Below, piece by piece: positions 13,084 to 26,117 of a DNA stretch of 26,117 bases (the first letter of the stretch is position 1; every line of letters begins with the position of its first letter). Source of the DNA: a virus; the IMG/VR virus record IMGVR_UViG_3300025698_000046, positions 1 to 26,117 of that record. One strand, 5' to 3'. The notes beneath the pieces were generated by a model. That model did not search any database. It saw only the letters and a list, made by a program, of their open reading frames with translations, and was not told the origin of the DNA. The translations under genes and the position numbers were made by a program.

Positions 13084-13097
13084 TATTACTAATTTTT

Positions 13098-13703: not shown

Positions 13704-15006
13704 TATCTTCTGTATTTAATTCAGCAACCAGCCCGGGATCAACAATCTCTTCAACCTGATCCGGTTCGTTCACTTTTTTAATTCCTTTTGAAAAATACTC
13801 ATCCGGTGGCGGGTTATCGCTATCATAATTACCTTCACCGTATAAAATCTCATTAGCTTTCAATGGTGTTATGATAGCTGACTCGATTTGTTTGGTCAAC
13901 ATATCGGTATAAACCTTTTTATCTGACTCCAATTCCTGTACCTTATCCCAATCCGCAACTATTTTATCACCTCCGTAACCTTCACTTATCCAACCGTTAA
14001 TACTTTCATAAAGCGTATCAACATCTCCCTTGATGACGTTCTTGTAAAGGTCTTTTATGGCCTCGGCTTTATTGGCAAACGTGCTGCCATCGGTTGAGAA
14101 TATCACCGGGTCAAACTCTGACATCTGGCATAAGCGATCAAAGGAATATTTTGCATTTTCGATAAGTTGCAATTCCTGAATGTTCAAACTCATCTGCTGC
14201 CAGGTTAACTTCTGAGTTGTAACGATTATCTTTTTCTGATTGCCAGATAGTCCATATTCTGCCAATTTATTCTGGACCTGCCTTGACTGTTCTGCATCAG
14301 GGATGTCTGACTCATTGGATAGGATACCCATTGCGCCGCGCTTCTCAATGATACTGGCCTTTGCATCATAAATGGCTTTTAGTTCGCGGTTGATCTTGTC
14401 ACCCGGTACATATTTAGAAATACCATATGCCCAGTTCCCTGAGTCGTATCGAAGGGTAAAGAATTTATTATGCAATACTTCGTCAGCACTCATGTTGTAT
14501 TTTGCACCGTTCAGGTCCATTTGATAACCTATAATTTCATTTTGCCATGCAGGTAGGTCTTTATTATTTCCTAACTTAATAGACATCCGATCAGCCGGCA
14601 AATTGAATACACTTGTTATCATACCATCAAACCCGATTGCCTTAATACCATACATATAAGAATTACCCAATACGTTGTAAAATCCGTAATCGGTCTTGAT
14701 AAACTCTTTCCATGTCTGGTAGTAATTGGGTTTTTCTATCAGTTGCCACAATTCAGAATTGGGCGCATCTCTACCGGATGGCCTTACCACTTTAACGGGT
14801 ATCTTGGAAATACGTTTGGCTAGGAAATTGGTAATTATGAATAAATCCGGGATTGTATCGAAGTTCTCAATAAGCTCTTTATCGCTGACTTCATTTGTCC
14901 CGTACGTGCTTGAATAGTTCCCAGATAGGAATGAAGTGAACACCCTCTGATCAGATTTTATTCTGATAAAGTCGTGTTTTAATAGATACTGTTTTATTAT
15001 ATTCAC
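13696..15006 (-). CDS. Portal protein, HK97 family
   Basis: A 436-residue portal, the dodecameric DNA gate at the capsid vertex. Recognisable features are IPDLFIITNFLAKRISKIPV at the N-terminal wing, LWQLIEKPNYYQTWKEF, a GNSYMYGIK strand, VLHNKFFTLRYDSGNWAYGI and the helix-rich C-terminal region. It starts at GTG (15006); there is no upstream in-frame ATG and the next ATG is too far in. A short inverted repeat (ACGCC/GGCGT, 15005-15009 and 15026-15030) covers the start codon and may fold over it. Confidence 0.9.
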   Translation of the reverse strand: MNIIKQYLLKHDFIRIKSDQRVFTSFLSGNYSSTYGTNEVSDKELIENFDTIPDLFIITNFLAKRISKIPVKVVRPSGRDAPNSELWQLIEKPNYYQTWKEFIKTDYGFYNVLGNSYMYGIKAIGFDGMITSVFNLPADRMSIKLGNNKDLPAWQNEIIGYQMDLNGAKYNMSADEVLHNKFFTLRYDSGNWAYGISKYVPGDKINRELKAIYDAKASIIEKRGAMGILSNESDIPDAEQSRQVQNKLAEYGLSGNQKKIIVTTQKLTWQQMSLNIQELQLIENAKYSFDRLCQMSEFDPVIFSTDGSTFANKAEAIKDLYKNVIKGDVDTLYESINGWISEGYGGDKIVADWDKVQELESDKKVYTDMLTKQIESAIITPLKANEILYGEGNYDSDNPPPDEYFSKGIKKVNEPDQVEEIVDPGLVAELNTEDNG

Positions 15007-15082
15007 GCCTTTTGTTTAAGAAATTGGCGTAAAGATACAACAAAACTGAATAGTGAGGGGTGTTTATTTTTTAATGGGGTGC

Positions 15083-15283
15083 CTATTCAGGTGATTTAAA
15101 TAAGTATTGTTTGCCTCCAATTTTACAAAATCCAACAACTTCGGCAAAAAAAGTACCGTCAGGATTATGAATGTCTTTACCGTTCGCGGTGAATCCTTGC
15201 AATGATTCAGCAGATACATTTTTCAGTGTACCATCTTTTGATTTTACTACATATCCATCAATGTCAATGATTCCATTTTCCAT
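15083..15283 (-). CDS. Small hypothetical protein between terminase and portal
   Basis: A 66-residue beta-rich protein (IDIDGYVVKSKDGTLKNVSA at its N-terminus, FAEVVGFCKIGGKQYLFKSPE at its end). It is not recognised. It follows the terminase by 11 bp and lies 76 bp ahead of the portal, so it belongs to the packaging/head transcript. Good coding character and conserved spacing support it. Confidence 0.7.
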   Translation of the reverse strand: MENGIIDIDGYVVKSKDGTLKNVSAESLQGFTANGKDIHNPDGTFFAEVVGFCKIGGKQYLFKSPE

Positions 15284-15294
15284 ATGTATTTATT

Positions 15295-16503
15295 TTAGAT
15301 TGTAAAACTCGTAATACTCACAATGTAAGCGAAATAGCCGCCTGCATCTGTAATATGATCGAACCCGCTTTGTTTATCAGGTTCATTCTTATTGTATGCG
15401 ATCTTTTCCAGTGCCTCAGTGTATTCCGGGCAATTATTGGAATTAACTAAATATGTCTTATCTCTAAACATTTTGTTTAACGAATTGACACGATCACGAA
15501 CAAAAGGATTTTTATTTGGTGCTCGGACTGTGTAACCCGCCTCCATTAGCAATCTAATATCAGATTTGCCGGAAGTTGACCTATTCCGCCCGCTGGCATC
15601 GGGATAAACTATGATAGCATGATCCGGGTATTTGTCGTTAATTATCCTGATCATCTGCATGGTATCATAAGCGTTCGTTATCTCATCTACTGCAATCTTG
15701 ATATTGCCATCAATCACATTTATGACCGCGTTCATGTTTGTAATATTGAAGTCCATTCCAATATGGAGCTTATCATGTTTCTGAATCGTCCGGTTTGAAT
15801 GGAGCTGCTTACGGTCGTAATCTGAGTAAACGGAACCGCTGGTAAGGTTAACAAATTCGCCGTTAAGGTAGGCTTGGAGTTGAGCAGGTGTATAGCTTTC
15901 GGTTAACGTTGCTATGTATCCGGCAGGCAGGAAAGGGTTTTCGCTGGTCTTGGCTTTGAATAGTTCACGGTTTGCGCTCTTATTCTTGACAAAGAAATTA
16001 TACAACCATCCGAACGATTCAGGAGTTGAAACAACACTTACCTTGTTTGTGCTTCCATCATGTAATACTGATCTGTTACGTGCTATGATCTTTGAAAACG
16101 CTTCCGTCATCTTTGTTTGCGGTAAAACATCAGCTTCATCAATACATGAATAAGCAACTTCATAACCAATGATAGTTTCCGGGTTATCCATTGTACGTAG
16201 GATTATCTTATTGGCACCGGGTATCAGTATCTCTTTATCGGATTTGTTTAACGTGTGCTTAACTCCGAGCTTATCCAGTATCTCTGTAAACTTTGGGAAT
16301 GCAATATCTCTAACTAAATTATAACTTGGTAGGTAGTACGCTACTGCGTACTCACTATATTTTAATTTCATTGCAATAGTTTTCAGAACACCTACATAAG
16401 ATTTTCCACTACCGAAACCACCGCAATAAGCTGCATGTGTGGCATCACTTGAAAAGAAATCCCTCTGTGTTGGTAAAAGTCCTATTTGTTCAGTTCTACC
16501 CAT
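15295..16503 (-). CDS. terL: Terminase large subunit (ATPase and nuclease)
   Basis: The motor that cuts concatemeric DNA and pumps it into the prohead. I choose the ATG at 16503 (402 residues), which overlaps the HNH stop as ATGGGTAG; a longer GTG start at 16557 would sit deep inside the HNH gene. Walker A is GGFGSGKS (residues 28-35) and Walker B is AYSCIDE (117-123). The C-terminal nuclease half contains HIGMDFN, a VYPDASG strand and FDHITDAGGYFAY near the end, with Asp residues placed as in phage_term_2-type terminases. Confidence 0.94.
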   Translation of the reverse strand: MGRTEQIGLLPTQRDFFSSDATHAAYCGGFGSGKSYVGVLKTIAMKLKYSEYAVAYYLPSYNLVRDIAFPKFTEILDKLGVKHTLNKSDKEILIPGANKIILRTMDNPETIIGYEVAYSCIDEADVLPQTKMTEAFSKIIARNRSVLHDGSTNKVSVVSTPESFGWLYNFFVKNKSANRELFKAKTSENPFLPAGYIATLTESYTPAQLQAYLNGEFVNLTSGSVYSDYDRKQLHSNRTIQKHDKLHIGMDFNITNMNAVINVIDGNIKIAVDEITNAYDTMQMIRIINDKYPDHAIIVYPDASGRNRSTSGKSDIRLLMEAGYTVRAPNKNPFVRDRVNSLNKMFRDKTYLVNSNNCPEYTEALEKIAYNKNEPDKQSGFDHITDAGGYFAYIVSITSFTI

Positions 16504-17035
16504 TAGCAAATTTCCAAATAAATCCATTAGCTTGTTTTTGTTTACCCAAACAAACACAACTAATTTTTTGTTGATGTACTCCTGTTTCCCTTTCAGCCTC
16601 TTTCATTGCATTAAATGTATTTAAATACTTGCCATCAATCGTAAATTGATCAACTTTTTTACTATTATGGTGCAATTTACCAAACCTACCTTTACAGTTT
16701 GGGTGTGCTACCCTTAGACCTATCCTGTAAGCATGTAAATCATTTTCTGAACGTGTGGCCCATTCAAGGTTTTTCACTCTGTTATCATTCTTAATACCAT
16801 TTAAATGATTAACAGTTTCTTTGTTTTCTGGATTATAAATAAAAGCACATGCAACCAGTCTATGGACTGAAATTATCCTACCTACATCATTTTTAAATAA
16901 TTCAACTCTTTGATACCCACGATAATCAACCAGTGATAATATGTGCGGCTTTCTACGTTTAAAAGAACGTACATTTCCTAAATTACTTACCATGTAATCT
17001 GGATACTCTTCTACTGTTTTGAATGTTTCTATCAT
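16496..17035 (-). CDS. HNH homing endonuclease (NUMOD4-HNH-NUMOD1)
   Basis: A 179-residue freestanding homing endonuclease. NUMOD4 spans about residues 9-50 (EEYPDYMVSNLGNVRSFKR). An HNH_3 core spans about 57-95 with HRLVACAF, VNHLNGIKNDN and LEWAT, so the catalytic His and Asn are present. A NUMOD1 DNA-binding helix-turn-helix spans about 127-160, ending GFIWKF. It lies between the candidate small and large terminase genes, a common homing site, and overlaps the terminase start by 8 bp. Its own leader has a promoter, a hairpin and three 9-bp repeats. It probably invades terminase loci lacking it. Confidence 0.92.
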   Translation of the reverse strand: MIETFKTVEEYPDYMVSNLGNVRSFKRRKPHILSLVDYRGYQRVELFKNDVGRIISVHRLVACAFIYNPENKETVNHLNGIKNDNRVKNLEWATRSENDLHAYRIGLRVAHPNCKGRFGKLHHNSKKVDQFTIDGKYLNTFNAMKEAERETGVHQQKISCVCLGKQKQANGFIWKFANG

Positions 17036-17038
17036 AAT

Positions 17039-17123
17039 GTAACGTGTTTAAATGAAAACGAGGGTACACGTTACTGAAACCCCCGATTTCTATTAGCTAA
17101 TGAAATATTTTATTGTAACGTGT
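17039..17123. repeat. Three copies of GTAACGTGT in the HNH leader
   Basis: GTAACGTGT occurs on the plus strand at 17039-17047 and 17115-17123, and in inverted form (ACACGTTAC) at 17066-17074. In the minus-strand transcript the first copy lies at the predicted 5' end, the inverted copy is in the loop of the hairpin at 17059-17085, and the last copy is directly upstream of the HNH ATG (17035). The loop can therefore pair with either flanking copy. It could instead be a protein-binding operator. Confidence 0.85.
17059..17085 (-). terminator. Terminator-like hairpin in the HNH leader
   Basis: On the minus strand a 7-bp stem CGGGGGT/ACCCTCG (one G-U pair) encloses a 13-nt loop and is followed by TTTTCATTT. 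The last nine bases of the loop (GTAACGTGT) abut the 3' stem and are the exact complement of the predicted transcript 5' end at 17123-17115. The stem and U-rich run fit an intrinsic terminator or attenuator placed between promoter and gene. Confidence 0.55.
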
Positions 17124-17127
17124 GACA

Positions 17128-17160
17128 CAAAGATACAAAATTATTTTAACTTAATATCAA
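17128..17160 (-). promoter_or_regulatory. Bacteroidetes-type promoter upstream of HNH/terminase
   Basis: The minus strand reads TATCTTTG at 17135-17128, an exact match to the TAnnTTTG -7 box, with TTG at 17160-17158 after a 22-bp spacer. Transcription would start near 17124-17120 and lead into the HNH gene and the terminase/head operon. The -33 element lies within the last codons of the preceding gene. Confidence 0.65.
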
Positions 17161-17419
17161 CTATTTCAATCCTTGTCAATGGATTACTTTCTTCATTAAC
17201 AACGTGTTGTTGTTTTGCGAATGCATATGCCATCAACCCGATAATAACCGACCACCGATCCTTTTCATTCATCTTTTCAAGATCAATAGGTAGGTTGGTT
17301 TTTATCTGCTCTGCTGACATTTCAACAATGGCATTTTTAACGGCAAGCCTCGCCTTATCCGGCCCGCGCTTGGATTTCTTACCCGCTTCACTTGCTGTTA
17401 TTGATGTGTATTTAGCCAT
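17141..17419 (-). CDS. Candidate terminase small subunit
   Basis: A 92-residue protein opening with TASEAGKKSKRGPDKAR, an N-terminal pattern typical of small terminase-like proteins of Bacteroidetes phages (basic, KRG-containing linker followed by helices NAIVEMSAEQIK and DRWSVIIGLMAYAFAKQQ). It would recognise the packaging site on phage DNA. Its place just upstream of terL, separated only by the homing endonuclease, supports this. No full helix-turn-helix can be assigned by eye, so the call stays tentative. Confidence 0.6.
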   Translation of the reverse strand: MAKYTSITASEAGKKSKRGPDKARLAVKNAIVEMSAEQIKTNLPIDLEKMNEKDRWSVIIGLMAYAFAKQQHVVNEESNPLTRIEIVDIKLK

Positions 17420-17442
17420 CGTTTGATTTCGTTATGTAACTA

Positions 17443-17450
17443 CAAAGTTA
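17443..17450 (-). promoter_or_regulatory. Possible -7 promoter box upstream of the small terminase candidate
   Basis: The minus strand reads TAACTTTG (TAnnTTTG match) 24 bp before the ATG at 17419. No TTG or TTTG element is found 17-23 bp upstream, so this is weaker than the boxes at 17128, 22950 and 24822. Confidence 0.35.
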
Positions 17451-17460
17451 CTAATTTTAT

Positions 17461-17595
17461 TTAAACCTCACTAGGAAACAGCCACAGCCCGCATTTTTTG
17501 CATTGGGTTTGTTTGCGACAACTAATGGTAATCTTTGGCGATGTGTACTCGTTATACCCCCTCAACTGATATGGGTTGACGTTGATGTGTGTGTG
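17461..17595 (-). pseudogene. Out-of-frame C-terminal part of the adjacent small gene
   Basis: In the frame offset by +1 from the 77-residue ORF upstream, the stretch from the CA repeat to the TAA at 17461 reads HINVNPYQLRGYNEYTSPKI and then a CxxC-containing end (TQCKKCGLWLFPSEV). This looks like genuine protein, whereas the beginning of the open frame (His-rich, before the CA repeat) looks like an out-of-frame reading. Adding one CA unit to the repeat at 17586-17595 would join the two parts into a single protein of about 108 residues with a probable zinc-binding tail. Confidence 0.5.
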
Positions 17596-17785
17596 GTGGT
17601 GGAGGTGGTAGTGTATTACATTTTTTAGGTGGCCTATCAACCGCTTCATCACAGTCATACTTTCTCTTTTGCTCCTTTAGTGCGAATTTAATTATTTCGA
17701 TGACCTCTTCATCGCTCCAAGCCAATGGAATCAAGCCACACCAATTATGCTTTTTGTACTTTTTAAGTAATTTATTCGCTTTCAT
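17552..17785 (-). CDS. Small hypothetical protein, probably truncated at a CA repeat
   Basis: A 77-residue ORF with sensible coding sequence up to a Pro run: MKANKLLKKYKKHNWCGLIP, then a helix DEEVIEIIKFALKEQKRKY and CDEAVDRPPKKCNTLPPPPP. The last 13 or so residues (HTHQRQPISVEGV) look like a frameshifted tail. The change of frame coincides with five CA dinucleotides. The start lies 4 bp after the GT2 stop, so it is coupled to the glycosyltransferase gene. The product could be short here and full-length in relatives. Confidence 0.55.
   Translation of the reverse strand: MKANKLLKKYKKHNWCGLIPLAWSDEEVIEIIKFALKEQKRKYDCDEAVDRPPKKCNTLPPPPPHTHQRQPISVEGV
17586..17595. repeat. (TG)5/(CA)5 microsatellite at a reading-frame break
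   Basis: Five TG dinucleotides on the plus strand (CA on the coding strand) lie where the coding signal jumps from one frame to another. Gain of one unit restores a continuous frame. Confidence 0.9.
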
Positions 17786-17789
17786 ATTT

Positions 17790-18572
17790 TTAATGTTTTA
17801 GTTTAATATCCATTCTCACAAGCCTTGCAAGGTAATAAAATAAAATCATAATAGTACTAAGTTTGCAGCCATATTTCAGGATGTAGTACCATTTAATCCG
17901 GTAGTTTCCGTAAATGATCACAGCCCGCTTTTTCCTTGATCGGGTTTGTGTTGCGCTTTCTTCACTCTTAACAAATACAGCTGAATGAAAGTCTAAGCAA
18001 TGGAAACGAGTATGCCGGATAAGTTCTAAAACAATTGGATAATCCCATACTCGAAATCCAAGCCTTACAAACTTCCTGAAATCAACGTACTTTTCAAATG
18101 TTGATCTTCTGATAAAATAGCCCTGAGCATGTATGTGCGCGTTACCCCTTAACAGCGAATCGAATGAGATATTATTATTAATGAATTGGGCCGATTGCTT
18201 CATGGTAGTTAGGTTATTATCAACTTCGGTCATAACCTTAGTAAAACAAAATCCGCAATCTGGGTTTGCTTCCATGTATTCGATTTGTATTTGCAACTTC
18301 TGATTTGTGTTCCAGTAGTCATCTCCATCACAGAACGCAATATATTTGCCTTTTGCCGCATTAAATCCCATTTGATAGGCTCGCATCATTCCGATGTGGC
18401 CGGTGTTGATTATCTGGATACGGTAATCAAAATTAATGAACGGCATCATATTATCATTAATAACAATTACCTCAAACTTATGATCTGTTATCTGATCCAA
18501 TACACTATCAACGGCTCTATTTAAATCGCTGAACGAATGCTGATAGGTCGTTATGATTACTGATACTTTCAT
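17790..18572 (-). CDS. Family 2 (GT-A) glycosyltransferase
   Basis: A 260-residue GT2 enzyme that would transfer a sugar from a nucleotide-sugar donor. The N-terminus MKVSVIITTYQHSFSDLNRA matches the family start. The metal-binding DxD region is FCDGDDYW (DGDD at 82-85), preceded by GFNAAKGKYIAF. A hydrophobic segment near residues 230-255 (YYILKYGCKLSTIMILFYYL) may attach it to the inner membrane. It forms a block with a two-helix membrane protein and a GT-B fragment, ATGA-coupled to the 60-residue gene upstream. Probable target: host surface glycan or a virion protein. Target inferred only. Confidence 0.88.
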   Translation of the reverse strand: MKVSVIITTYQHSFSDLNRAVDSVLDQITDHKFEVIVINDNMMPFINFDYRIQIINTGHIGMMRAYQMGFNAAKGKYIAFCDGDDYWNTNQKLQIQIEYMEANPDCGFCFTKVMTEVDNNLTTMKQSAQFINNNISFDSLLRGNAHIHAQGYFIRRSTFEKYVDFRKFVRLGFRVWDYPIVLELIRHTRFHCLDFHSAVFVKSEESATQTRSRKKRAVIIYGNYRIKWYYILKYGCKLSTIMILFYYLARLVRMDIKLKH

Positions 18573-18751
18573 TTGTACAGTTCTTTTTTAAATTCGTTGT
18601 TGTAAGGAACGAATGTAGAATCTATTAAATATTTGTTATCAAAATCCCAGTTTTGATAAATCCAACCGCCTGGCACCCTAATCACTACGCACCCGGCTTT
18701 TATCAGATATAATTCCTCATGTAGTCTTAAATTGTAAATAGTATGTTCCAT
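18569..18751 (-). CDS. Small conserved-looking protein in glycosyltransferase block
   Basis: A 60-residue protein with a central CVVIRVPGGWIYQNWDFD motif that I associate with small uncharacterised Bacteroidetes phage proteins. It has no signal peptide or membrane helix. It overlaps the GT2 start by 4 bp (ATGA). Function unknown. Confidence 0.7.
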   Translation of the reverse strand: MEHTIYNLRLHEELYLIKAGCVVIRVPGGWIYQNWDFDNKYLIDSTFVPYNNEFKKELYK

Positions 18752-18755
18752 ATCG

Positions 18756-19049
18756 TTAATTGTTTAGTTTCTGTTTAATCTCTTCAATATCATTTGTTAA
18801 CTTCTCCATATATGGATTTCGTTTAAATATCTCAGTTTGCTCCCTTTCGAATAGTTTCAATTTGTCATCAACGTAGCCAATTATGTAGATTATCAGTATG
18901 GCCATAAAAGCAAACATCACTTTAATGTACATTGGCATTTCGCCTGTGAAGATCGTAACGAGTAATGCAGTTATGACAGAGTTTAGTATCGAATACCACA
19001 TCCGGCCCCGGTCAAATCTGATTTTATGCTTTCTGTAATGAAATTTCAT
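18756..19049 (-). CDS. Two-helix membrane protein with coiled-coil tail (holin not excluded)
   Basis: A 97-residue protein with a basic N-terminus, two membrane segments (about residues 20-35, SILNSVITALLVTIF, and 43-62, YIKVMFAFMAILIIYIIGYV) joined by a short turn, and a charged helical C-terminus (LTNDIEEIKQKLNN). The topology suits a class II holin, but its position among glycosyltransferase genes and the lack of an adjacent lysin make a membrane partner for sugar transfer just as likely. It overlaps the upstream gene by 26 bp. Confidence 0.65.
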   Translation of the reverse strand: MKFHYRKHKIRFDRGRMWYSILNSVITALLVTIFTGEMPMYIKVMFAFMAILIIYIIGYVDDKLKLFEREQTEIFKRNPYMEKLTNDIEEIKQKLNN

Positions 19050-19518
19050 GTTGTATCATTCTAATTATTTCGCTTGGATTAGGATCTGATTTACTCCAAT
19101 AGTACGGAATATTATTTATTTTGCATTCCATAACCATGCGAGGGTTTCCGTCATGCCTGTTTGGTCTTACCATGAAGTCAACGAAAGGATAAATTTTACT
19201 CATATCATTAATGCCATTGACCTCTATTAAATGAATATAATCATCTTCAAAAATTTCCATTACCAGCATCATAACATCATGTCCATAAACCCAATCCTGA
19301 AACGTTTGATTTGATCCAAGCCCGCGATAGTACAGTATATTAAATACTTTATGAGGTATCTTTTTAACCGGCTTGGTGTAAATCGGTGGATTGGCCTGGA
19401 CCTTGATGGGCTTTTTGAATTTAAGCGGTTCCAGTTCAGCCCTGAGATGTTCACTAACTACATAATGCCCTTCGATAAAATAATCAGCAATCCGGGCAAA
19501 TATTCGAAGGCAAAACAT
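19024..19518 (-). CDS. GT-B-type glycosyltransferase, 5'-truncated by an in-frame TGA
   Basis: A 164-residue ORF from an internal ATG. The C-terminal half carries the GT4/GT-B donor-site pattern: NILYYRGLG, then MSKIYPFVDFMVRPNRHDGN and PRMVMECKINNIPYYWS with the conserved Glu. Coding sequence clearly continues upstream in the same frame (DVLFCTRYPKHSKKSKYIY) to an ATG at 19599 that overlaps the previous gene's stop as ATGA, but codon 5 of that longer frame is TGA. A single TGA to TGG change would give 191 residues with a WTGSDV start, like the GSD motif of GT-B enzymes. The function may thus be reduced. Confidence 0.7.
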   Translation of the reverse strand: MFCLRIFARIADYFIEGHYVVSEHLRAELEPLKFKKPIKVQANPPIYTKPVKKIPHKVFNILYYRGLGSNQTFQDWVYGHDVMMLVMEIFEDDYIHLIEVNGINDMSKIYPFVDFMVRPNRHDGNPRMVMECKINNIPYYWSKSDPNPSEIIRMIQHEISLQKA

Positions 19519-19599
19519 GTAAATGTACTTCGATTTCTTTGAGTGCTTTGGGTAACGGGTGCAAAATAGTACGTCTGATCCTGTTCACATTAGTTTCAT
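19519..19599 (-). pseudogene. 5' end of the GT-B gene, interrupted by TGA at 19585-19587
   Basis: From the ATG at 19599 the frame reads MKLM, stop, TGSDVLFCTRYPKHSKKSKYIY and runs without another stop into the 164-residue ORF. The ATG sits in a 4-bp overlap with the upstream stop, the usual start placement in this operon. This makes the ATG at 19518 a fallback rather than the original start. Confidence 0.6.
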
Positions 19600-19838
19600 A
19601 ATGATTTGTTTTTAGTTTCTCTATACACTACTTCTTTGCTGACCAATCTAGCCCCGTCAATGGATTCGATCTGGTTAATTGCAGACGCTAAAGTATCATT
19701 CTCTTTTTTGTAATTAGTCCACATGCCAAATAAAACATCAATTAATCTAGTGGCTGATTGGACTTCATACTGAGTCGTTCCGTCACGGTTTGTCTTCCTT
19801 ACTACTCTGTAATACTTTTCTTTGTGAAAGTTTTTCAT
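19596..19838 (-). CDS. Small hypothetical protein
   Basis: An 80-residue charged protein (MKNFHKEKYYRVVRKTNRDG at the start) with a likely beta-hairpin (YYRVVRKTNRDGTTQYEVQS) followed by helix. Not recognised. It lies 18 bp after the DUF7352-like gene and couples to the GT-B start by ATGA. Function unknown. Confidence 0.68.
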   Translation of the reverse strand: MKNFHKEKYYRVVRKTNRDGTTQYEVQSATRLIDVLFGMWTNYKKENDTLASAINQIESIDGARLVSKEVVYRETKNKSL

Positions 19839-19856
19839 TGTATTCTATTTTTAATA

Positions 19857-20132
19857 TTAATACTCGTATCCATCGTCAAAAACATGGAATATTAAATTTC
19901 CACCGCTCAGTTGGTATGAGCCAATATACGTTCCAGTAGCTTGTGGATGTATCGGGTTGCCGGTTCCGATTACTATAATCTTCCTGAATGCCTTTTGCTT
20001 GTCAGTGTCTACAATGGCCCACATTTTAGGCTCTTCAAACTGTGTATTTACTGCCAATATTTGTGCGCCAAAAGGCATTTCAACTCTATTAACATCCGTT
20101 GTTTTTAGGTCAAATTTCCAAATTTTTTTCAT
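19857..20132 (-). CDS. DUF7352-like small phage protein
   Basis: A 91-residue protein with the pattern MKKIWKFDL...VEMPFGAQILAV, then MWAIVDTD, IIVIGTGNPI and YIGSYQLSGGNLIFHVFDDG. This matches, from memory, a widespread small phage protein family (DUF7352) of unknown function. It overlaps the 61-residue gene as ATGA. Confidence 0.72.
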   Translation of the reverse strand: MKKIWKFDLKTTDVNRVEMPFGAQILAVNTQFEEPKMWAIVDTDKQKAFRKIIVIGTGNPIHPQATGTYIGSYQLSGGNLIFHVFDDGYEY

Positions 20133-20314
20133 AATATCCGATATGTTAAGTCAATATTTAATTCTTTCCAGTTGTATTTTTTACGATATGTTTTCAATAA
20201 TTCAGCTTTTCTTTTATCCAATAGTTTTTTATTTTCAATCATCTCACTCACCTTAATTGCCTCTTTCGCTCCTCCGTTGCCGTTGCATACGCGGATTACC
20301 TGTATTTCTATCAT
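20129..20314 (-). CDS. Small hypothetical protein
   Basis: A 61-residue basic helical protein (MIEIQVIRVCNGNGGAKEAI at the start, then KVSEMIENKKLLDKRKAELL). Not recognised. Four-base ATGA overlaps on both sides place it in a tightly coupled run of genes, which is the main support for it. Confidence 0.62.
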   Translation of the reverse strand: MIEIQVIRVCNGNGGAKEAIKVSEMIENKKLLDKRKAELLKTYRKKYNWKELNIDLTYRIL

Positions 20315-20538
20315 CTTATCAACTGAATATGTTTATCAAATGTCTCATTGAAGTTTACATCGAGTTTCTTAATCATTGACTTAACTTGAATGATCTCGCA
20401 TACTATTGAGTTTTGCTGATCCTTTTCCCATTCCGGGCATTGGTGTTTGATAGCCTCAATATGATTTAGGTATCTGTTTAGGGCCGTTCGCATTATGATA
20501 CGGCGTTCCTGGGTATCTTTTAGTCCGGTTAGTGCCAT
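20311..20538 (-). CDS. Small hypothetical helical protein
   Basis: A 75-residue protein, almost entirely predicted helix, with two helices separated by a CPEWEKDQQ turn. Not recognised. Its ATG at 20538 overlaps the stop of the methyltransferase stub as TAATG, and its stop overlaps the next ATG as ATGA. Function unknown. Confidence 0.65.
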   Translation of the reverse strand: MALTGLKDTQERRIIMRTALNRYLNHIEAIKHQCPEWEKDQQNSIVCEIIQVKSMIKKLDVNFNETFDKHIQLIR

Positions 20539-20654
20539 TAAATCGGTCCTTCATTAAGTGATTGCCAATTCACACCATCCGATGTAATCTCATGGTCATT
20601 GCCCCATAACTTACGATTCCCGCCGATTCCTGCATACAGGTTTAGTATTTTCAT
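20538..20654 (-). CDS. DNA methyltransferase stub (SAM-binding motif I only)
   Basis: A 38-residue ORF read from the gap, ATG at 20654. It begins MKILNLYAGIGGNRKLWGND, the exact style of motif I (FxGxG, AdoMet-binding) at the N-terminus of phage DNA methyltransferases, which are normally 150-250 residues. After residue 24 it turns into SDGVNWQSLNEGPI and stops. Start and stop are still coupled to neighbours (1-bp gap after the SSB-like gene, TAATG into the next). This suggests an internal deletion that left a short in-frame remnant; catalytic motifs such as DPPY or PPC are absent. Confidence 0.65.
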   Translation of the reverse strand: MKILNLYAGIGGNRKLWGNDHEITSDGVNWQSLNEGPI

Positions 20655-20655
20655 A

Positions 20656-20922
20656 TCAAAAAGGTAAATCATCTGCCTCATCAATCGTGCCCGATTCTTT
20701 CTTCTGTGGTTCACTCGCTTTCAAATTACCCAGGATAGCACCTTTAACGCCTTCTTTCCGTTCCTCTGCTGTGGTTGATTGTACAACCATGTGAGATTGA
20801 CCATACTCGTTTGATTTCGATTCAAGCGCGAAGGCATCAAGGTAGATTGCCCCGGTCTTATCCGATTTGAATAATTTTGCTTTGTCGATCTTTGTTAAGT
20901 CTAATTTGATTTCGTAATTCAT
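20656..20922 (-). CDS. SSB-like protein with acidic C-terminal tail
   Basis: An 88-residue protein with N-terminal beta strands (MNYEIKLDLTKIDKAKLFKS, AIYLDAFAL, HMVVQST) and a disordered linker ending in IDEADDLPF. The acidic tail with terminal Asp-Asp-Leu-Pro-Phe is the classic partner-binding end of single-stranded DNA-binding proteins. The core is shorter than bacterial SSB but fits a compact OB-fold or phage SSB family. It lies within the replication genes, near the nuclease and helicase. Confidence 0.72.
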   Translation of the reverse strand: MNYEIKLDLTKIDKAKLFKSDKTGAIYLDAFALESKSNEYGQSHMVVQSTTAEERKEGVKGAILGNLKASEPQKKESGTIDEADDLPF

Positions 20923-20933
20923 TTTATTTAATT

Positions 20934-21167
20934 TTATTGTTTATTTAATTTAATCAATTTTCCATCTTTTGTTTTTATAAACTCTTCGCCATGTTCACAA
21001 ACCATTGCATTACCTAAATTAACGCCGGGTGTTTTTACTTTCTTTTTATCTCTAGTATCAGCATATTCAATCATAGCACTGACCATCACTTCCTTTATTT
21101 CATCAACCTTCAACCCGATCATGTACCTTTCTGCTATGACTTTGGCGGCTGTTATTACATCTTTCAT
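20934..21167 (-). CDS. Small hypothetical protein
   Basis: A 77-residue protein with an N-terminal helical part (DVITAAKVIAERYMIGLKVD) and a C-terminal part NLGNAMVCEHGEEFIKTKDG. No recognised family. It is located between the nuclease and the SSB-like gene. Function unknown. Confidence 0.65.
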   Translation of the reverse strand: MKDVITAAKVIAERYMIGLKVDEIKEVMVSAMIEYADTRDKKKVKTPGVNLGNAMVCEHGEEFIKTKDGKLIKLNKQ

Positions 21168-21230
21168 AATTATTTAATTTAATATTCGTTTATCTCAGTA
21201 AAAATAGTTATTATAATAATACTTTGCTTG

Positions 21231-21746
21231 TTAAACATTGTTAAACTCTCTCATCATCTTAACCCGGTCTGAATCCATGATCTTATAATACAGCTCTAGG
21301 AATTGATCAAGCGTTCGAACGATGAAGTATTGACCACCTCCGCGCTTGACATCTTCCTCAAATGCCTTTTGATTATCCTTTTGCTTGTCCGATTTGCTGA
21401 ACTTAACTTCAAATTGAAAATCTAATCCGTGGATCGTTGCCCGAATATCCGCGGCCCCTTTCGTTGATGTTCCAGGTGTCCATGTTCCAGTTCCAATTAC
21501 CCGAGTCCGGCCAACAACATCCTTGAATGATTTCTTATCATCTCTATAAACTCCTGTGGTGGTTATCTTCTGGGCGTGGAATCCAGATAGTTTAATAAAT
21601 TCAATCAGTAGTGCTTCCATCTGAGCTGCAGACTTAGGTAGTTTGACTTCAATTACTGCATCGAAATAGCCTGTTTTCATCGCGGCCGGATAACGTTTCG
21701 ATTTATCGGTTAACCTGAGTTGCTTTAATTCGGTGGCGAAGTTCAT
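21231..21746 (-). CDS. PD-(D/E)XK-type nuclease (VRR-NUC/resolvase-like)
   Basis: A 171-residue protein. The sequence KGAADIRATIHGLDFQFEVK contains Asp100 and the E113-x-K115 pair of the PD-(D/E)XK fold, with an upstream Glu (E49 in QMEALLIEFIKLSGF) as the helical acidic residue and a downstream helix (DNQKAFEEDVKRGGGQYFIV) as in VRR-NUC and Holliday-junction-type nucleases. It is probably used in replication or recombination. Neighbours are the SSB-like and helicase genes. The exact subfamily is uncertain. Confidence 0.72.
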   Translation of the reverse strand: MNFATELKQLRLTDKSKRYPAAMKTGYFDAVIEVKLPKSAAQMEALLIEFIKLSGFHAQKITTTGVYRDDKKSFKDVVGRTRVIGTGTWTPGTSTKGAADIRATIHGLDFQFEVKFSKSDKQKDNQKAFEEDVKRGGGQYFIVRTLDQFLELYYKIMDSDRVKMMREFNNV

Positions 21747-21758
21747 TGGATTAGTTGT

Positions 21759-21974
21759 TTATCTGCGGTGCCTAAGATCAAAAGTAATTTCTTTCAATCT
21801 ATCATTGACTTTTTCTTGAAATTTAGTAAGGTACTTAAACCTCTTGGTTGATTGCACCGTTTTAGTTCTATCTTCGTAAATATATCGTGCAATATCTACA
21901 AGTTCTCGAACCGTGAAACTGAATCCGCTATCGGATAAAACAGGTGTTGCTACTTTCTTTTTAAATCCACACAT
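21759..21974 (-). CDS. Small hypothetical protein
   Basis: A 71-residue basic protein (MCGFKKKVATPVLSDSGFSF at its start) followed by helices VRELVDIARYIYEDR and LTKFQEKVNDRLKEI. Not recognised. It is 12 bp upstream of the nuclease gene and in the same operon. Confidence 0.65.
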   Translation of the reverse strand: MCGFKKKVATPVLSDSGFSFTVRELVDIARYIYEDRTKTVQSTKRFKYLTKFQEKVNDRLKEITFDLRHRR

Positions 21975-21985
21975 ATCTATATTTT

Positions 21986-22117
21986 TTAGCGTTGTTTAAA
22001 CCTTTTAACTGCGTTATCTCTTTTAATCTCTTGAATCCAATTTAAAACCTGAACTATTTCTATTTGCTCATATCCTTTTCCACGTATCTTTATTAACCTT
22101 CTTTCTAATTCTTTCAT
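21986..22117 (-). CDS. Very small helical protein
   Basis: A 43-residue ORF read from the gap: ATG at 22117, TAA at 21986-21988, sequence beginning MKELERRLIKIRGKGYEQIE. Highly charged and helical. Its start overlaps the preceding small ORF by 4 bp (ATGA) and it ends 11 bp before the next gene, which supports translation. Function unknown. Confidence 0.6.
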   Translation of the reverse strand: MKELERRLIKIRGKGYEQIEIVQVLNWIQEIKRDNAVKRFKQR

Positions 22118-22278
22118 ACCATTATCTGTTTTAACTGTGTTGAATTATACTTTGTTTCCTGAATTACTCCATTCACTTTTATAGTGTGCTGTACCTGATC
22201 TATGCCTTTACCGGTTGATTTAGTGGCAATAATTTCTATTTTGTTGCCTTTGGTGGTTGTGAAAGTTTGTTTTAGCAT
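22114..22278 (-). CDS. Very small hypothetical protein
   Basis: A 54-residue ORF read from the gap: ATG at 22278, TGA at 22114-22116, beginning MLKQTFTTTKGNKIEIIATK. The strand-turn-strand pattern suggests a small beta fold. It begins 2 bp after the GIY-YIG stop and couples to the next ORF by ATGA. Together with the 43-residue ORF it fills a 300-bp gap that would otherwise be empty. Confidence 0.62.
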   Translation of the reverse strand: MLKQTFTTTKGNKIEIIATKSTGKGIDQVQHTIKVNGVIQETKYNSTQLKQIMV

Positions 22279-22280
22279 AA

Positions 22281-22922
22281 TTAAATGTTTCTAAATATTT
22301 TTAATGGCCTTCCGTATGTCGCCGCCCCAGGTATGTCCATTGGGGTGTATCTAATCATCTTGGATATTTCATATGTGTAGCAGTTCTTTAAAATATTACG
22401 AATTATGATAGTTGTTATTTTATTGTTCTTTAAGAAAAAGTGTTTTTTAATGTCAGTTGGCGTTACCATAACATAATCTGAATTTGTTTGTAATAAATAC
22501 AAATCAATAACACCCATAATTTCATCCTTAAACGGATAGTTCTTAGTTCCCTTTTTTACATCATTAATCTTGCTGTTCGCTCTATTTACATAGCTTATTA
22601 AATAATCTTTTTGTACATTTGATAACGCTGTAAATTTATTTATAAACCTTAAATCTTTATCGCGTTTGTTGATTTCAGAATTTATTTCCAATTCTCCAAT
22701 ATTAAAAAACTCACCATTCATTCGTACTGTTGTATATTTTTTATGCAATTCATTTTCTAACATTGCTGGGCTATCAGTTTCTATTACTCCACAAACTTTC
22801 GCGCCTGTCGGTGAGTATGTTTTGAATGAATTAAATCTATCATCAACAGATTCACTGTTATTAGTCATCCCAATCTTAATTCCATCAATTCCATTGTGCT
22901 TAAAAAAATATACAAATCCCAT
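22281..22922 (-). CDS. GIY-YIG (T5orf172-like) nuclease with helicase-derived C-terminal domain
   Basis: A 213-residue protein. The N-terminal 90 or so residues carry a GIY-YIG/T5orf172-type core: FVYFFKHN...IKIGMTN, Arg29 region, SPTGAKVCG, then AMLENELHKKY and GEFFNI with the conserved Glu and Asn. Residues about 153-210 (VTPTDIKKHFF, IRNILK, IRYTPMD, YGRPLKI) align with residues 335-391 of the adjacent helicase, so the two proteins share a C-terminal domain. It has its own promoter and sits inside the replication block, as a homing endonuclease would. Confidence 0.82.
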   Translation of the reverse strand: MGFVYFFKHNGIDGIKIGMTNNSESVDDRFNSFKTYSPTGAKVCGVIETDSPAMLENELHKKYTTVRMNGEFFNIGELEINSEINKRDKDLRFINKFTALSNVQKDYLISYVNRANSKINDVKKGTKNYPFKDEIMGVIDLYLLQTNSDYVMVTPTDIKKHFFLKNNKITTIIIRNILKNCYTYEISKMIRYTPMDIPGAATYGRPLKIFRNI

Positions 22923-22949
22923 AATTTCAATGTGTTAGTGAATATCCAA

Positions 22950-22981
22950 CAAAGATAAGTAAATTTATATTAATTAACAAA
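22950..22981 (-). promoter_or_regulatory. Strong Bacteroidetes-type promoter upstream of the GIY-YIG gene
   Basis: The minus strand reads TATCTTTG (22957-22950) with TTTG at 22981-22978 and a 20-bp AT-only or nearly AT-only spacer, a full match to the TTTG/TAnnTTTG consensus. Predicted start of transcription is about 20-25 bp before the ATG at 22922. Confidence 0.75.
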
Positions 22982-23154
22982 TTTTTATTAAGTTAGTTAT
23001 TGTAAAGTTTTGTTCCAATTTTGTTACCTGCTAACTACTTAACTATTACTATATTATATATAATATTATAATAAAGTAACAAAGTAACAGTGCTTTTCGT
23101 ATTCTTACGGGATCTGCCGCAATGTTTACAATCACCCATTTTGTTACCTTTTTG
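22982..23154. other. AT-rich intergenic region with palindrome and TTTGTTAC repeats
   Basis: This non-coding stretch between the helicase and the GIY-YIG gene holds ATTTTGTTACCT twice as a direct repeat (23018-23029 and 23138-23149), the related GTAACAAAGTAAC in inverted sense (23075-23087) and a perfect 16-bp palindrome ATATTATATATAATAT (23051-23066). No ORF of convincing character is present. It could be a replication origin next to the helicase, or an operator region for the downstream promoter. Confidence 0.5.
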
Positions 23155-24390
23155 TTAAAACGGTATTTCATTAGCTTTTTGGATTAAATTTTCACTGTTA
23201 AAAAAGTCATTGCTTTCAAATTTAAACGGCCTACCTCGTTGGAAATCAACCCCATTGAATGGGCTATAATACAAAACCTTCTCTGATGGTTCCCGCTCAA
23301 ACTCCAACTTTATTACCCTTCGTATGTAGTTACGATCAATATTATTATTGTTACAAAAAAACTTATCCTTGATGTCTCCGGGTGTACAAAGGCACTCTTT
23401 TTGCTCAGAATTAAGAAAATAATGCGTAAACAATTCGATCAATTCTTTGTACAATCCCGATCTACTTTCCTTCTTTGCCGCCTCAAGATACTCGTTTTTT
23501 ATCTGATCCGGCGTCAGCACCATACGTGATAGCGAAAAATCAGGATCGTTCATTGTTTTGAGATAGTCAACGAATGCTGGGATCTCTGAAATCATATCAT
23601 TAAGTATGTTATGGTTTACTACCTTGGGTGTCCCTAATCGCCTGATCCAAAATCTGATTTCCTTATCATCAATCTTCATAAATTTATCTTCGTTGTTCGA
23701 TGCCATGATGATTTTGCCGAAAAATGGAAGTTTGAACTGTGCCACTTGTTTGATGTTAACTGATATGAATTTCTTTGTTGCCAGTGATTTGATTTTTTCA
23801 ACTGCTATCTGCTTATCAAGTATTGTTTCATCGATAGCAATTATGTTTGAAGTGGCAAATTCACCGTTAAAAGTACTACCGATAACATCCGGTTCAATCA
23901 TAACCATGTTTGCACCGAAGATCATATTCAACCAATCAAGAAACGTACTCTTACCTGTCGCGCGTTCAGATGACACCAACACAAGTATAGGTAGGGCTTT
24001 CTTTGGATAGGAATACATTACCTTTAAATAGGTCATACCTGATTTAAACTGTGATCCAAATACCTGCTTTAATAGTACCAACGTCCACGGCCATTTTCCC
24101 GCACTTGGAGTATGTGGAAAATCATTGTACATATTGTAATTGTTTGCAATTACCCGGCTGTTACCGTTGTTGTTTGGATCAATTACGAAATCATCAAACT
24201 GCTGAATCGTGTACATGTATTTTTTATCATGATCGAAAAGCAACGTTTCTTTATTCCATTTTTTTAACTCCGTTCTGACTATCCCAAACCTATCCGGCTT
24301 ATTAATAATCTTGAAATACTCGGTCCCAACACGAATATAATCTTGTGAATATTTACCTCTAGATTTACCCTTAATTTCTTGAATATCCAT
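23155..24390 (-). CDS. SF3-type replicative helicase (D5/primase-helicase C-terminal type)
   Basis: A 411-residue ATPase. Walker A is SSERATGKST (140-149), Walker B IIAIDE (183-188), motif C KIIMASNN (226-233) and an arginine-finger region RFWIRRL (246-252), the order of superfamily 3 helicases. The N-terminal 100 residues show no primase active site, so it may be a stand-alone helicase. A winged-helix-like C-terminal part (about 333-391, CTPGDIKDKFF...YYSPFNG...GRPFKF) is shared with the neighbouring GIY-YIG nuclease. It would unwind phage DNA during replication. The start overlaps the previous gene by 20 bp. Confidence 0.88.
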   Translation of the reverse strand: MDIQEIKGKSRGKYSQDYIRVGTEYFKIINKPDRFGIVRTELKKWNKETLLFDHDKKYMYTIQQFDDFVIDPNNNGNSRVIANNYNMYNDFPHTPSAGKWPWTLVLLKQVFGSQFKSGMTYLKVMYSYPKKALPILVLVSSERATGKSTFLDWLNMIFGANMVMIEPDVIGSTFNGEFATSNIIAIDETILDKQIAVEKIKSLATKKFISVNIKQVAQFKLPFFGKIIMASNNEDKFMKIDDKEIRFWIRRLGTPKVVNHNILNDMISEIPAFVDYLKTMNDPDFSLSRMVLTPDQIKNEYLEAAKKESRSGLYKELIELFTHYFLNSEQKECLCTPGDIKDKFFCNNNNIDRNYIRRVIKLEFEREPSEKVLYYSPFNGVDFQRGRPFKFESNDFFNSENLIQKANEIPF

Positions 24391-24712
24391 TTTTAAAAGT
24401 TTTTTCGGCTGATGCTAATATTACTTTTGTTTGTTGATTAATTTCATAGAATAATGTCAGGTCTGGACCCATAAAGTTTTTCATTGTAGATGAGTCTTCT
24501 TTGAGCTGCTCAATGATAGTCATCAACTCAATATTATCTAATTCCATTTGGCAAATGTATTTTTCAATGAAGTTATAGAATGCAATTATCCGTTTTATTT
24601 CCGGCTCGTTGTTCTTATCTTGGTATAATAGATTTGAAAGTGAACGTTTCAATTCTTTGGTATGACTTTCAAAGGAAAGTACTAATTCATTTAGATAGTT
24701 GTATTTATCCAT
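24371..24712 (-). CDS. Hypothetical coiled-coil protein upstream of helicase
   Basis: A 113-residue, almost fully helical acidic/basic protein (MDKYNYLNELVLSFESHTKE, QMELDNIELMTIIEQLKEDS) with heptad-like spacing. Not recognised; it may be an accessory or loader protein for the helicase, as it overlaps that gene by 20 bp. It is the first larger gene after the structured leader at 24739-24829. Confidence 0.68.
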   Translation of the reverse strand: MDKYNYLNELVLSFESHTKELKRSLSNLLYQDKNNEPEIKRIIAFYNFIEKYICQMELDNIELMTIIEQLKEDSSTMKNFMGPDLTLFYEINQQTKVILASAEKTFKNGYSRN

Positions 24713-24804
24713 AGTTGTAGGATTAACCCCAATAAAAAAGCACCAACCGTCAGTCGCCAGACCCGGGAGGTGCTATTAAATTGGATGTAATTTTTTTTAT
24801 TCAT
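24691..24804 (-). CDS. Possible 37-residue membrane peptide in the leader
   Basis: An ORF starting ATG at 24804 (MNKKNYIQFNSTSRVWRLTV...) with a hydrophobic stretch VGAFLLGLILQLWI near the C-terminus, stop at 24691-24693. The start lies about 10 nt after the predicted transcript 5' end, so the message would be nearly leaderless. The ORF runs through a terminator-like hairpin, so either it is a leader peptide whose translation affects the hairpin, or the frame is open by chance. Confidence 0.35.
   Translation of the reverse strand: MNKKNYIQFNSTSRVWRLTVGAFLLGLILQLWINTTI
24739..24774 (-). terminator. Terminator/attenuator-like hairpin with 5'-end-complementary loop
   Basis: On the minus strand AGCACC (24774-24769) pairs with GGTGCT (24744-24739), and after a 2x2 mismatch CCG pairs with CGG; T at 24738-24734 follows. 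The 14-nt loop ends in TGGCGACTGA (24759-24750), the exact complement of TCAGTCGCCA at 24813-24804 near the predicted 5' end of the transcript. This is the same layout as the hairpin at 17059-17085. Confidence 0.6.
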
Positions 24805-24813
24805 GGCGACTGA
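24750..24813 (-). repeat. 10-bp perfect inverted repeat linking transcript 5' end and hairpin loop
   Basis: TCAGTCGCCA (minus strand, 24813-24804) and TGGCGACTGA (24759-24750) are perfect complements separated by 44 bases. The first arm covers the A of the ATG of the 37-residue ORF. Confidence 0.9.
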
Positions 24814-24821
24814 TTGAATTA

Positions 24822-24829
24822 CAAAGATA
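24822..24829 (-). promoter_or_regulatory. Bacteroidetes-type promoter upstream of replication genes
   Basis: The minus strand reads TATCTTTG at 24829-24822, an exact -7 box. The -33 position carries only GTG/TGTG around 24853-24848, so the upstream element is partial. It lies just after the stop of the Cys-rich protein gene and ahead of the structured leader. Confidence 0.55.
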
Positions 24830-24834
24830 ACAAT

Positions 24835-25059
24835 TTATTTGGTTATTTCACATACTTCTTTAAGTAATTTAAACATCATGCAAGTACCGTCATCCTTAAC
24901 TAATGTATCAAGTATTTGTGTGGCCACCTCGTTATTTGCTGCATCATAATTGTACAAGTTTTGCACTAACGCGATTGGGCACGGCTCATCGAATAACTTA
25001 CATTTACTGCATTGGTCATCAAAGGCCGCGCTATCTCCACTGTTGCTAAAATATGCCAT
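24835..25059 (-). CDS. Small Cys-rich protein (possible zinc-binding)
   Basis: A 74-residue protein with CSKCKLFDEPCPIALVQNLY (three Cys in 9 residues) and later DDGTCMMFK and VCEITK, so five cysteines in total. The pattern fits a small structural metal site or redox motif. I associate the CPIALVQ...YNYD...DDGTCMMF pattern with small Bacteroidetes and phage proteins of unknown role. It lies between the ParB-like gene and the leader promoter. Confidence 0.72.
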   Translation of the reverse strand: MAYFSNSGDSAAFDDQCSKCKLFDEPCPIALVQNLYNYDAANNEVATQILDTLVKDDGTCMMFKLLKEVCEITK

Positions 25060-25087
25060 AGTTTTATTTATTTGGTTATTGCAAAGA

Positions 25088-25981
25088 TTAAATTAATTTG
25101 CATGGCTTTGTTTCTTTCTTTGATATGAACAGTTTTCTCAAAGGTACTTTGCGCCTATAATAACTCCACGCTTTGAAGATCAATGCAGGGTAGTGCCATA
25201 ACGGAACTTTCTCATCTGAACTATTTTTTATTGACATCAGTTTTTCCCGGAGTGCATAAATAGGATCATCGGAATTGAGATTTTCACCGGTTGAAAGTTT
25301 ACTGTAAAAGTGTTCGGCTTGATCTAAATTTATTTTCCGCAAATGCCAAAAAGCAAATGCCATAACGCTCAATCCTAGTATCTTTTTTGATTTTGTTCTG
25401 TACTTTAAACAGAAAGAAACAGTCTCATCTATTTCAGTTTTGTTTTCCTGATAGTACTCAACAATCATAGCATTGTTAACGGTTCGTCTACTTGTAGCTG
25501 ATTTATAAACGTCTTGAGTTACTTGACCAGTACAGCGACTCCACGAAGTCATATTCGCACCTAATGTAGTTTTAATAATCTTAACAATAAGTGTGCTAGT
25601 TAAACTAGCTGTATCATGAGTTAAGCCCTCAATAGTTAGTACGTCTATCCCCTTACGGCCTTTCCCGGTATCAATTGATTTAAATACATCATTATTTATT
25701 CCTGTAATTACAAGTAAGTCCTGTGAAATGTTGGCTATGATTATAGCATTTAATCTGGTCTGACCGTCTAATAGTGTGCCATCATCTGCAAAAATAATAG
25801 GTACACCGTTAAACTGCCAGTAACCTTCAATCATATCAAATGCGTAAGCACTCGCATATGCTTTCGGTAATGCCCTGTTATGATCGTTCTTTTCGAGCAT
25901 TTTTCCGGCCTGTTCAGGTGTGATGTTTACAATTCCGGCTTTTATGCCATGTCCTAAATCTTTTAATAATTCGTGTTTCAT
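25088..25981 (-). CDS. ParB/sulfiredoxin-fold phage protein (DGQTRL family)
   Basis: A 297-residue protein. Residues about 18-80 read ITPEQAGKMLEKNDHNRALP, an Ala/Tyr helix, EGYWQFNGVPIIFADDGTLL and DGQTRL (72-77), the hallmark of the ParB-like nuclease or DGQHR-type domain common in phages. The rest is helical and resembles the C-terminal region of this phage family. Possible roles are nucleotide-dependent DNA binding, modification or regulation; true plasmid-type partitioning is not indicated since no ParA is nearby. It is the first complete gene at the right end and follows a hairpin. Confidence 0.8.
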   Translation of the reverse strand: MKHELLKDLGHGIKAGIVNITPEQAGKMLEKNDHNRALPKAYASAYAFDMIEGYWQFNGVPIIFADDGTLLDGQTRLNAIIIANISQDLLVITGINNDVFKSIDTGKGRKGIDVLTIEGLTHDTASLTSTLIVKIIKTTLGANMTSWSRCTGQVTQDVYKSATSRRTVNNAMIVEYYQENKTEIDETVSFCLKYRTKSKKILGLSVMAFAFWHLRKINLDQAEHFYSKLSTGENLNSDDPIYALREKLMSIKNSSDEKVPLWHYPALIFKAWSYYRRKVPLRKLFISKKETKPCKLI

Positions 25982-26023
25982 GTTTAATTGTATTATGTGA
26001 ATAAATGATTATTTTGATTTAAA

Positions 26024-26061
26024 ACCAATCCCAGACCACAACCACGAGGCCCGGAATTGGT
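26024..26061 (-). terminator. Strong terminator-like hairpin at the right end
   Basis: On the minus strand ACCAATTCCGGGCC (26061-26048) pairs with GGTCTGGGATTGGT (26037-26024), 14 consecutive pairs including three G-U, around the 10-nt loop TCGTGGTTGT, followed by TTTAAATC. It lies between a partial upstream ORF and the ParB-like gene and probably separates two transcripts. Confidence 0.65.
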
Positions 26062-26071
26062 GGATTACATG

Positions 26072-26117
26072 TTAAAACATTTCTTTTTGATTATTTTCAA
26101 ACCTATTCTTAACGCCG
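26072..26117 (-). CDS. C-terminal end of an upstream gene (partial)
   Basis: From the window edge the frame reads GVKNRFENNQKEMF and stops at TAA (26072-26074). The hydrophilic, charged end resembles a real phage protein terminus and it is followed by a terminator-like hairpin. Another frame is open for a similar length, so the choice is uncertain. Confidence 0.35.
   Translation of the reverse strand, partial: GVKNRFENNQKEMF

Follow-up and report, generated by a model that had tools for sequence, protein, structure and literature searches.

The pT181 attenuators and the RNAI/RNAII pair of ColE1 work through loop-loop contacts of about 7 nucleotides (nt), and their loops diversify while the pairing stays; pT181 also has an early terminator before the gene. 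Riboswitches with a loop-loop or pseudoknot contact and a terminator (the guanidine-IV type and others) combine a 5' leader, a tertiary loop contact and a terminator before the open reading frame (ORF). The put RNA of phage HK022 is a structured RNA of about 70 nt with two stem-loops, and putL lies directly after an early promoter (PMC9378689). Here we describe a putative leader RNA at two sites, A and B, on the minus strand of IMG/VR record IMGVR_UViG_3300025698_000046, together with a family of such elements that follow many early promoters in phages of flavobacteria. The window, as we call the whole stretch that was analysed, is this complete 26,117-base virus record, which is possibly only part of the viral genome. 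In these elements, a short arm near the predicted 5' end of the RNA is complementary to part of a terminator hairpin loop, and the letters of the pair vary between elements.

As in put, an early promoter is followed immediately by two hairpins in the family (142 of 154 curated elements have the first, P1). Put lacks an intrinsic terminator of its own and enables RNA polymerase to read through distant ones, whereas in the family one of the two hairpins is itself a terminator (folds were compared only coarsely). Copies of put also share sequence, whereas the 154 elements have 81 distinct arms. In contrast to pT181 and ColE1 RNAI/RNAII, where the contacts join a sense and an antisense RNA, both loops here lie in one RNA. 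Unlike riboswitches, which have conserved ligand-binding letters, the family has letters that vary. As in transcription attenuators broadly defined, an intrinsic terminator lies between promoter and gene (T tract registered on the hairpin in promoter-bearing members; 145 of 154 elements with an ORF start no more than 130 nt on).

At gathering score, Rfam 15 gave no matches in the window or in eight loci with members. A permissive Rfam search of five loci returned one tRNA and two matches below gathering score, with no family recurring. We found no description of such an element in the literature covered, which was partial and left many subscription papers and all bioRxiv preprints outside. The changing yet matched pairing letters point to what may be an undescribed RNA switch.

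Collection of the family

The search started from 48 phage loci holding relatives of the window's terminase, primase and HNH proteins. In these loci, all copies of sites A and B were identical to those in the window and, therefore, uninformative on covariation. With a simple scan, L029, L032 and L034 proved to have this layout in different letters; their elements precede a GIY-YIG endonuclease gene, a short gene with a primase-type operon behind it, and a gene for a BT4734/VirE-type primase. Several elements lie directly after an SSB-like gene (DUF3127). The search was widened through this gene, a helicase and the primase to a viral collection and cultured phages, giving about 2.6 Mb of phage DNA, which includes the isolates mumin9-1, FL-1 and phi18:3. 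The sample is weighted to flavobacterial phages and one metagenome (3300020045), and the promoter motif TAnnTTTG was built into most searches.

An earlier note on this DNA had staked its reading on further instances in related phages, a test that it passed strongly: 154 curated elements were found in 124 loci. They comprise 83 non-redundant elements. Cultured phages are among the carriers, namely Flavobacterium phage mumin9-1 (L133, elements at 11666 and 12701), FL-1 (L135, at 13921) and Cellulophaga phage phi18:3 (L115, at 10114). The one Bacteroides phage searched, B124-14, had no convincing element. The positional counterpart of site A in L044, at 8952, is a looser element.

Arm and loop match far more often than expected by chance

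At both sites, the sequence confirms a promoter, an arm and a terminator hairpin in the same order, with perfect complementarity between arm and loop (Table 1). The spacer from arm to complement is 44 nt at site A and 40 nt at site B. To set chance levels, a first set of places was chosen by TAnnTTTG followed by a terminator picked by its stem and T run alone, and the first 30 nt were tested against the terminator loop. Own arm-loop pairs with a paired length k of at least 8 nt were seen in 41 of 213 places, compared to 0.9% with swapped loops, and two locus sets collected later showed the same excess of own over swapped pairs. After removal of redundancy, which was blind to the arm-loop match, 63 of 183 places had k of at least 7 vs 7.3 expected; the maximum in 20,000 permutations was 20. 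Swapped arms and loops gave perfect complements of at least 9 nt in about 0.3-0.5% of places with promoter and terminator. Two such sites within one 26-kb window are far beyond chance, and chance is untenable given the wider family. For the site B leader, mono-shuffling gave P of about 2-3e-4 (site A falls below the stem threshold of that detector). Flavobacterial chromosomes, covering 0.9 Mb around DUF3127 genes, showed no arm-loop excess, with k of at least 8 in 1 of 144 places vs 1.1% when swapped.

A scan that ignored promoter and T run gave 136 phage matches, and TAnnTTTG was present within 28 nt upstream in 74. The background for this motif is 2.9% at random positions and 1 of 32 matches in the bacterial chromosome set. 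In the 74 promoter-bearing matches, a T-rich stretch of 8-10 positions is registered on the hairpin and is followed by A-rich sequence, which argues for an intrinsic terminator and not a translation start. A permissive terminator scan without the promoter criterion was swamped by AT-rich hairpins.

Most members are predicted to fold as kissing loops

The typical member is predicted to begin with a 5' hairpin (P1), which an A-rich linker joins to an intrinsic-terminator hairpin (P2); the latter is interrupted by a non-canonical internal loop and topped by a short inner hairpin (P3). Pairing between 6-10 nt in the loop of P3 and the P1 loop or, in members that lack P1, the free 5' end is shown by complementarity, swap controls and compensatory changes. 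The arm lies inside the P1 loop, after the promoter, in 142 of the 154 elements, and the complement lies inside the apical P3 loop on the terminator in 133; thus, the usual form is a kissing-loop RNA. Among the first 67 elements, the flanking stems occurred more often than with shuffled flanks (62 vs 42 for P1 and 58 vs 33 for P3). Textbook cases are L066, which has CAATTC-GGTCAG-GAATTG with CCTTTA-CTGACC-TAAAGG, and L120, which has TGGTA-CTGGAAC-TACCA with ATACGA-GTTCCAG-TCGTAT. Paired nt in the loops mostly number 6-8 (mode 7). In 115 of the 133 P3 loops, the paired segment runs right up to the 3' strand of the stem; 0-2 nt on its 5' side are left unpaired, mostly A in P3. Six to eight paired nt abutting the 3' stem, with few unpaired nt on the 5' side, is the geometry of kissing loops. 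Internal loops between P2 and P3 recur as TGAA/GGAT, TGAT/TGAT, GGA/AAA and GAGTA/GAAA, and look as if they might be sheared G-A or loop-E modules.

The arm at site A is the loop of a 5-bp hairpin, so the pairing there would be loop to loop. The pseudoknot-like pairing proposed in the earlier note is borne out, although kissing loop is the more precise term for most members, site A included. Site B had no usable P1 stem around its arm unless promoter bases were used and, like L034 and L058, has only a free 5' arm. Site B is thus a variant of the kissing-loop RNA whose arm lies at the unpaired 5' terminus.

Ten readily alignable members, whose downstream genes are early ones (in most cases one and the same helicase), were aligned without using structure; columns were afterwards picked to fit the structure. 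Their 8-bp kissing helix is 98.8% paired, by Watson-Crick pairs only with no G-U, and double changes occur at 6 of 8 pairs. When the partners were slid by 1-3 columns, pairing over the whole structure fell from 97% to 34-43%. These compensatory changes in relatives, along with the swap controls, bear out the suggestion that unrelated arms with kept complementarity behave like covariation. They also largely refute a reading at the DNA level, in which the arms would be inverted-repeat repressor sites near the promoter. The arms do adjoin promoters, and there are three copies of ACACGTTAC at site B. However, arms differ even inside one contig (81 distinct in 154 elements), the complement lies inside a terminator-hairpin loop, and the two halves are enclosed by P1 and P3 stems more often than after shuffling, none of which an operator requires. 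We regard operators as extremely improbable.

The covariance-model route proposed in the earlier note was weak here: the one model built (R1), from ten members, recovered site B at E 0.49 and missed site A. It gave 15 matches in 99 phage loci, few of them beyond its own subclass, and 2 matches to non-phage terminators in 50 host genomes. The weakness of R1 is due to a family sequence too variable for one model. Since only complementarity is conserved, sequence-profile searches easily miss the family.

Downstream genes and pairing within one phage

In 145 of the 154 elements, the hairpin is followed by an ORF whose start is no more than 130 nt away, at a median of 16 nt. Once redundancy is removed, helicases, primases and ERF are among the genes downstream, along with about a dozen endonucleases of the HNH or GIY-YIG type. 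The suggestion that early and packaging transcripts are controlled was, therefore, half right: the genes downstream are mainly for replication, recombination and homing endonucleases, and site B fronts an HNH gene upstream of the terminase. Homing-type endonuclease genes often lie directly behind their own element (GIY-YIG in L091, L029, L057 and L099; HNH in the window, L049, L052 and L133), as if promoter, leader and endonuclease moved as one cassette. Elements also precede a family of proteins of about 75 amino acids (aa) (MAKFELKF...LDKSTAIKFAKTLRTEIN) in L032, L052, L053, L071, L079, L118 and L129, with a common AATAGTTTATnGGnnACTTAAAACCTTTATG between T run and ATG.

When arms were compared to the other loops of the same contig, none of 52 cross pairs had k of at least 7, and arms differed inside one contig. 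Since 1.7 cross pairs are expected by chance, this result is only suggestive. The difference between pairs within a phage suggests that each leader most likely acts on itself. It also bears on the possibility that the element is a 5'-end or stability element or a phage small RNA, in which the kissing fold shields the 5' end, the terminator yields an abundant short RNA and the gene is expressed through leaky read-through. Three features suit such an RNA: the arm lies close to where the RNA is predicted to begin, a compact fold followed by a T tract would give a stable short RNA, and L034, L058 and site B have only a free 5' arm. We nevertheless think it unlikely, since nearly all members have an ORF beginning a median of 16 nt past the hairpin, and pairing private to each leader (0 of 52 cross pairs) is more in keeping with action in cis than with a common target in trans.

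A second direct copy of the arm before the start codon was seen at site B (TTTAAACACGTTACATTATG) and in L354 at 1437 on the plus strand (TTTAAACACACTACAATATG), both without P1. Swapping gives an expectation of 0.18 such direct repeats, compared to these 2. At these two places, the terminator loop could pair with either the leader arm or the translation start.

Proposed mechanism

A terminator between promoter and gene, together with a conserved contact to its loop, makes an attenuator the best explanation. Attenuation, as the earlier note proposed, is compatible with an intrinsic terminator in this position. We consider it fairly probable that these elements are a phage-specific family of cis-acting leader RNAs, most likely attenuators, in which loop-loop pairing sets read-through. 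The TAnnTTTG promoter would start the RNA, and the terminator hairpin ends about 80-95 nt downstream. Contact between the loops during transcription would then set the ratio of termination to read-through into genes for replication, recombination and homing endonucleases. The sign we prefer, speculatively, is that P1 captures the nascent P3 loop while the 3' half of P2 is still inside the polymerase, so that the terminator is hindered or delayed. A phage or host factor might tune this by recognising the folded structure and not the variable letters.

A more tentative possibility is a protein-independent class of phage riboregulators, in which loop-loop contact, and not conserved sequence or ligand, decides termination, with an orthogonal lock and key for each leader. 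If true, one phage could run several independent leaders, and coinfecting phages would not cross-talk.

Several points weigh against attenuation through loop-loop pairing. In terms of geometry, the kissing contact could equally form alongside the complete terminator, and linkers do not become longer with longer stems (rho -0.25). No element precedes the primase operon of L043, which is the closest diverged relative (primase 68% identical), and sites A and B themselves are known only as identical copies. About half of the structure-only matches have no promoter and are probably chance hits.

Two other modes of control share features with the elements. In put-like processive antitermination, the folded leader would bind phage-modified or host RNA polymerase and, in the manner of HK022 put RNA, make it resist both the leader's own terminator and those further on. 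In position and size the elements are like put, being structured RNAs of about 70-100 nt right after early promoters, mostly with two hairpins and with replication genes downstream. Put, however, has no built-in terminator and its two copies are similar in sequence, whereas here each element contains a terminator and its loop letters are free to vary. A simple scan of window positions 13000-26117 also gave no excess of ordinary terminators that would need bypass, and we judge this model to be quite improbable. In leader-peptide attenuation, termination would be governed by a ribosome that translates a short ORF spanning the hairpin. Site A does have a 37-aa ORF (MNKKNYIQFNSTSRVWRLTVGAFLLGLILQLWINTTI, 24804-24691, minus strand) that starts at the last base of the arm and crosses the hairpin and T run into the next gene, its second half being hydrophobic, and L354 has a 41-aa ORF. 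Such ORFs are depleted, though, in the family as a whole (19 of 154 vs 41 expected from shuffled leaders) and occur within the window at site A only, so that this explanation has very little probability.

Antisense control was also tried as a candidate and rejected, as antisense promoters were not enriched downstream (16 vs 13 in the upstream control).

Features of the window

Genes of the window lie mainly on the minus strand, and those for a terminase, a portal and a primase-like protein can be recognised. The neighbours of site A are a 74-aa ORF on one side and, on the other, a 113-aa ORF followed by the primase-like gene. Site B is flanked by a 92-aa ORF and a NUMOD4/HNH endonuclease gene, the latter upstream of the terminase.

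Table 1. Positions of the site A and site B elements and of the genes behind them in the window
Feature	Position	Strand	Basis or remark
Site A, Bacteroidetes-type -7 promoter box TATCTTTG	24822-24829	minus	sequence
Site A, 5' hairpin P1: 5-bp stem ATTCA/TGAAT, 11-nt loop A+TCAGTCGCCA	24799-24819	minus	sequence; stem in minimum free energy (MFE) fold
Site A, arm TCAGTCGCCA (loop of P1)	24804-24813	minus	sequence
Site A, terminator hairpin AGCACC-TC-CCG / CGG-TT-GGTGCT (P2, 2x2 internal loop, P3)	24739-24774	minus	sequence; MFE fold
Site A, perfect complement in apical loop TGGCGACTGA	24750-24759	minus	last 10 of 14-nt loop; abuts 3' stem
Site A, terminator T run	24734-24739	minus	sequence
First gene after site A, 113 aa	24371-24712	minus	followed by DUF5906 primase-like gene, 23155-24390
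Site B, overlapping -7 boxes: TAATTTTG (17143-17136, -7-like) and TATCTTTG (17135-17128)	17128-17143	minus	sequence
Site B, arm ACACGTTAC, near predicted 5' end	17115-17123	minus	sequence
Site B, terminator hairpin CGGGGGT / ACCCTCG, then TTTT	17059-17085	minus	sequence; MFE fold
Site B, complement in apical loop GTAACGTGT	17066-17074	minus	last 9 of 13-nt loop; abuts 3' stem
Site B, second direct arm copy, just before HNH ATG (third ACACGTTAC copy counting the complement)	17039-17047	minus	sequence
Gene after site B, NUMOD4/HNH homing-type endonuclease	16496-17035	minus	terminase large subunit next, 15295-16557

Elsewhere in the window, a promoter-like box TAGGTTTG is followed by a long hairpin (ACCAATTCCGGGCC/GGTCTGGGATTGGT) and TTTT at 26105-26025 on the minus strand; it has no kissing arm and precedes the ORF at 25088-25981. 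The minus-strand ORF at 2-1411 has many repeats of a unit resembling NAYSATGSVYYNGIFGDR, possibly a tail-fibre or receptor-binding repeat.

Significance

For synthetic biology, the family offers natural orthogonal kissing-loop pairs and candidate read-through switches. To our knowledge, gene timing in Bacteroidetes phages has been little studied. A structured RNA fronting replication, recombination and homing-endonuclease genes would make this timing testable, including in cultured Flavobacterium and Cellulophaga phages.

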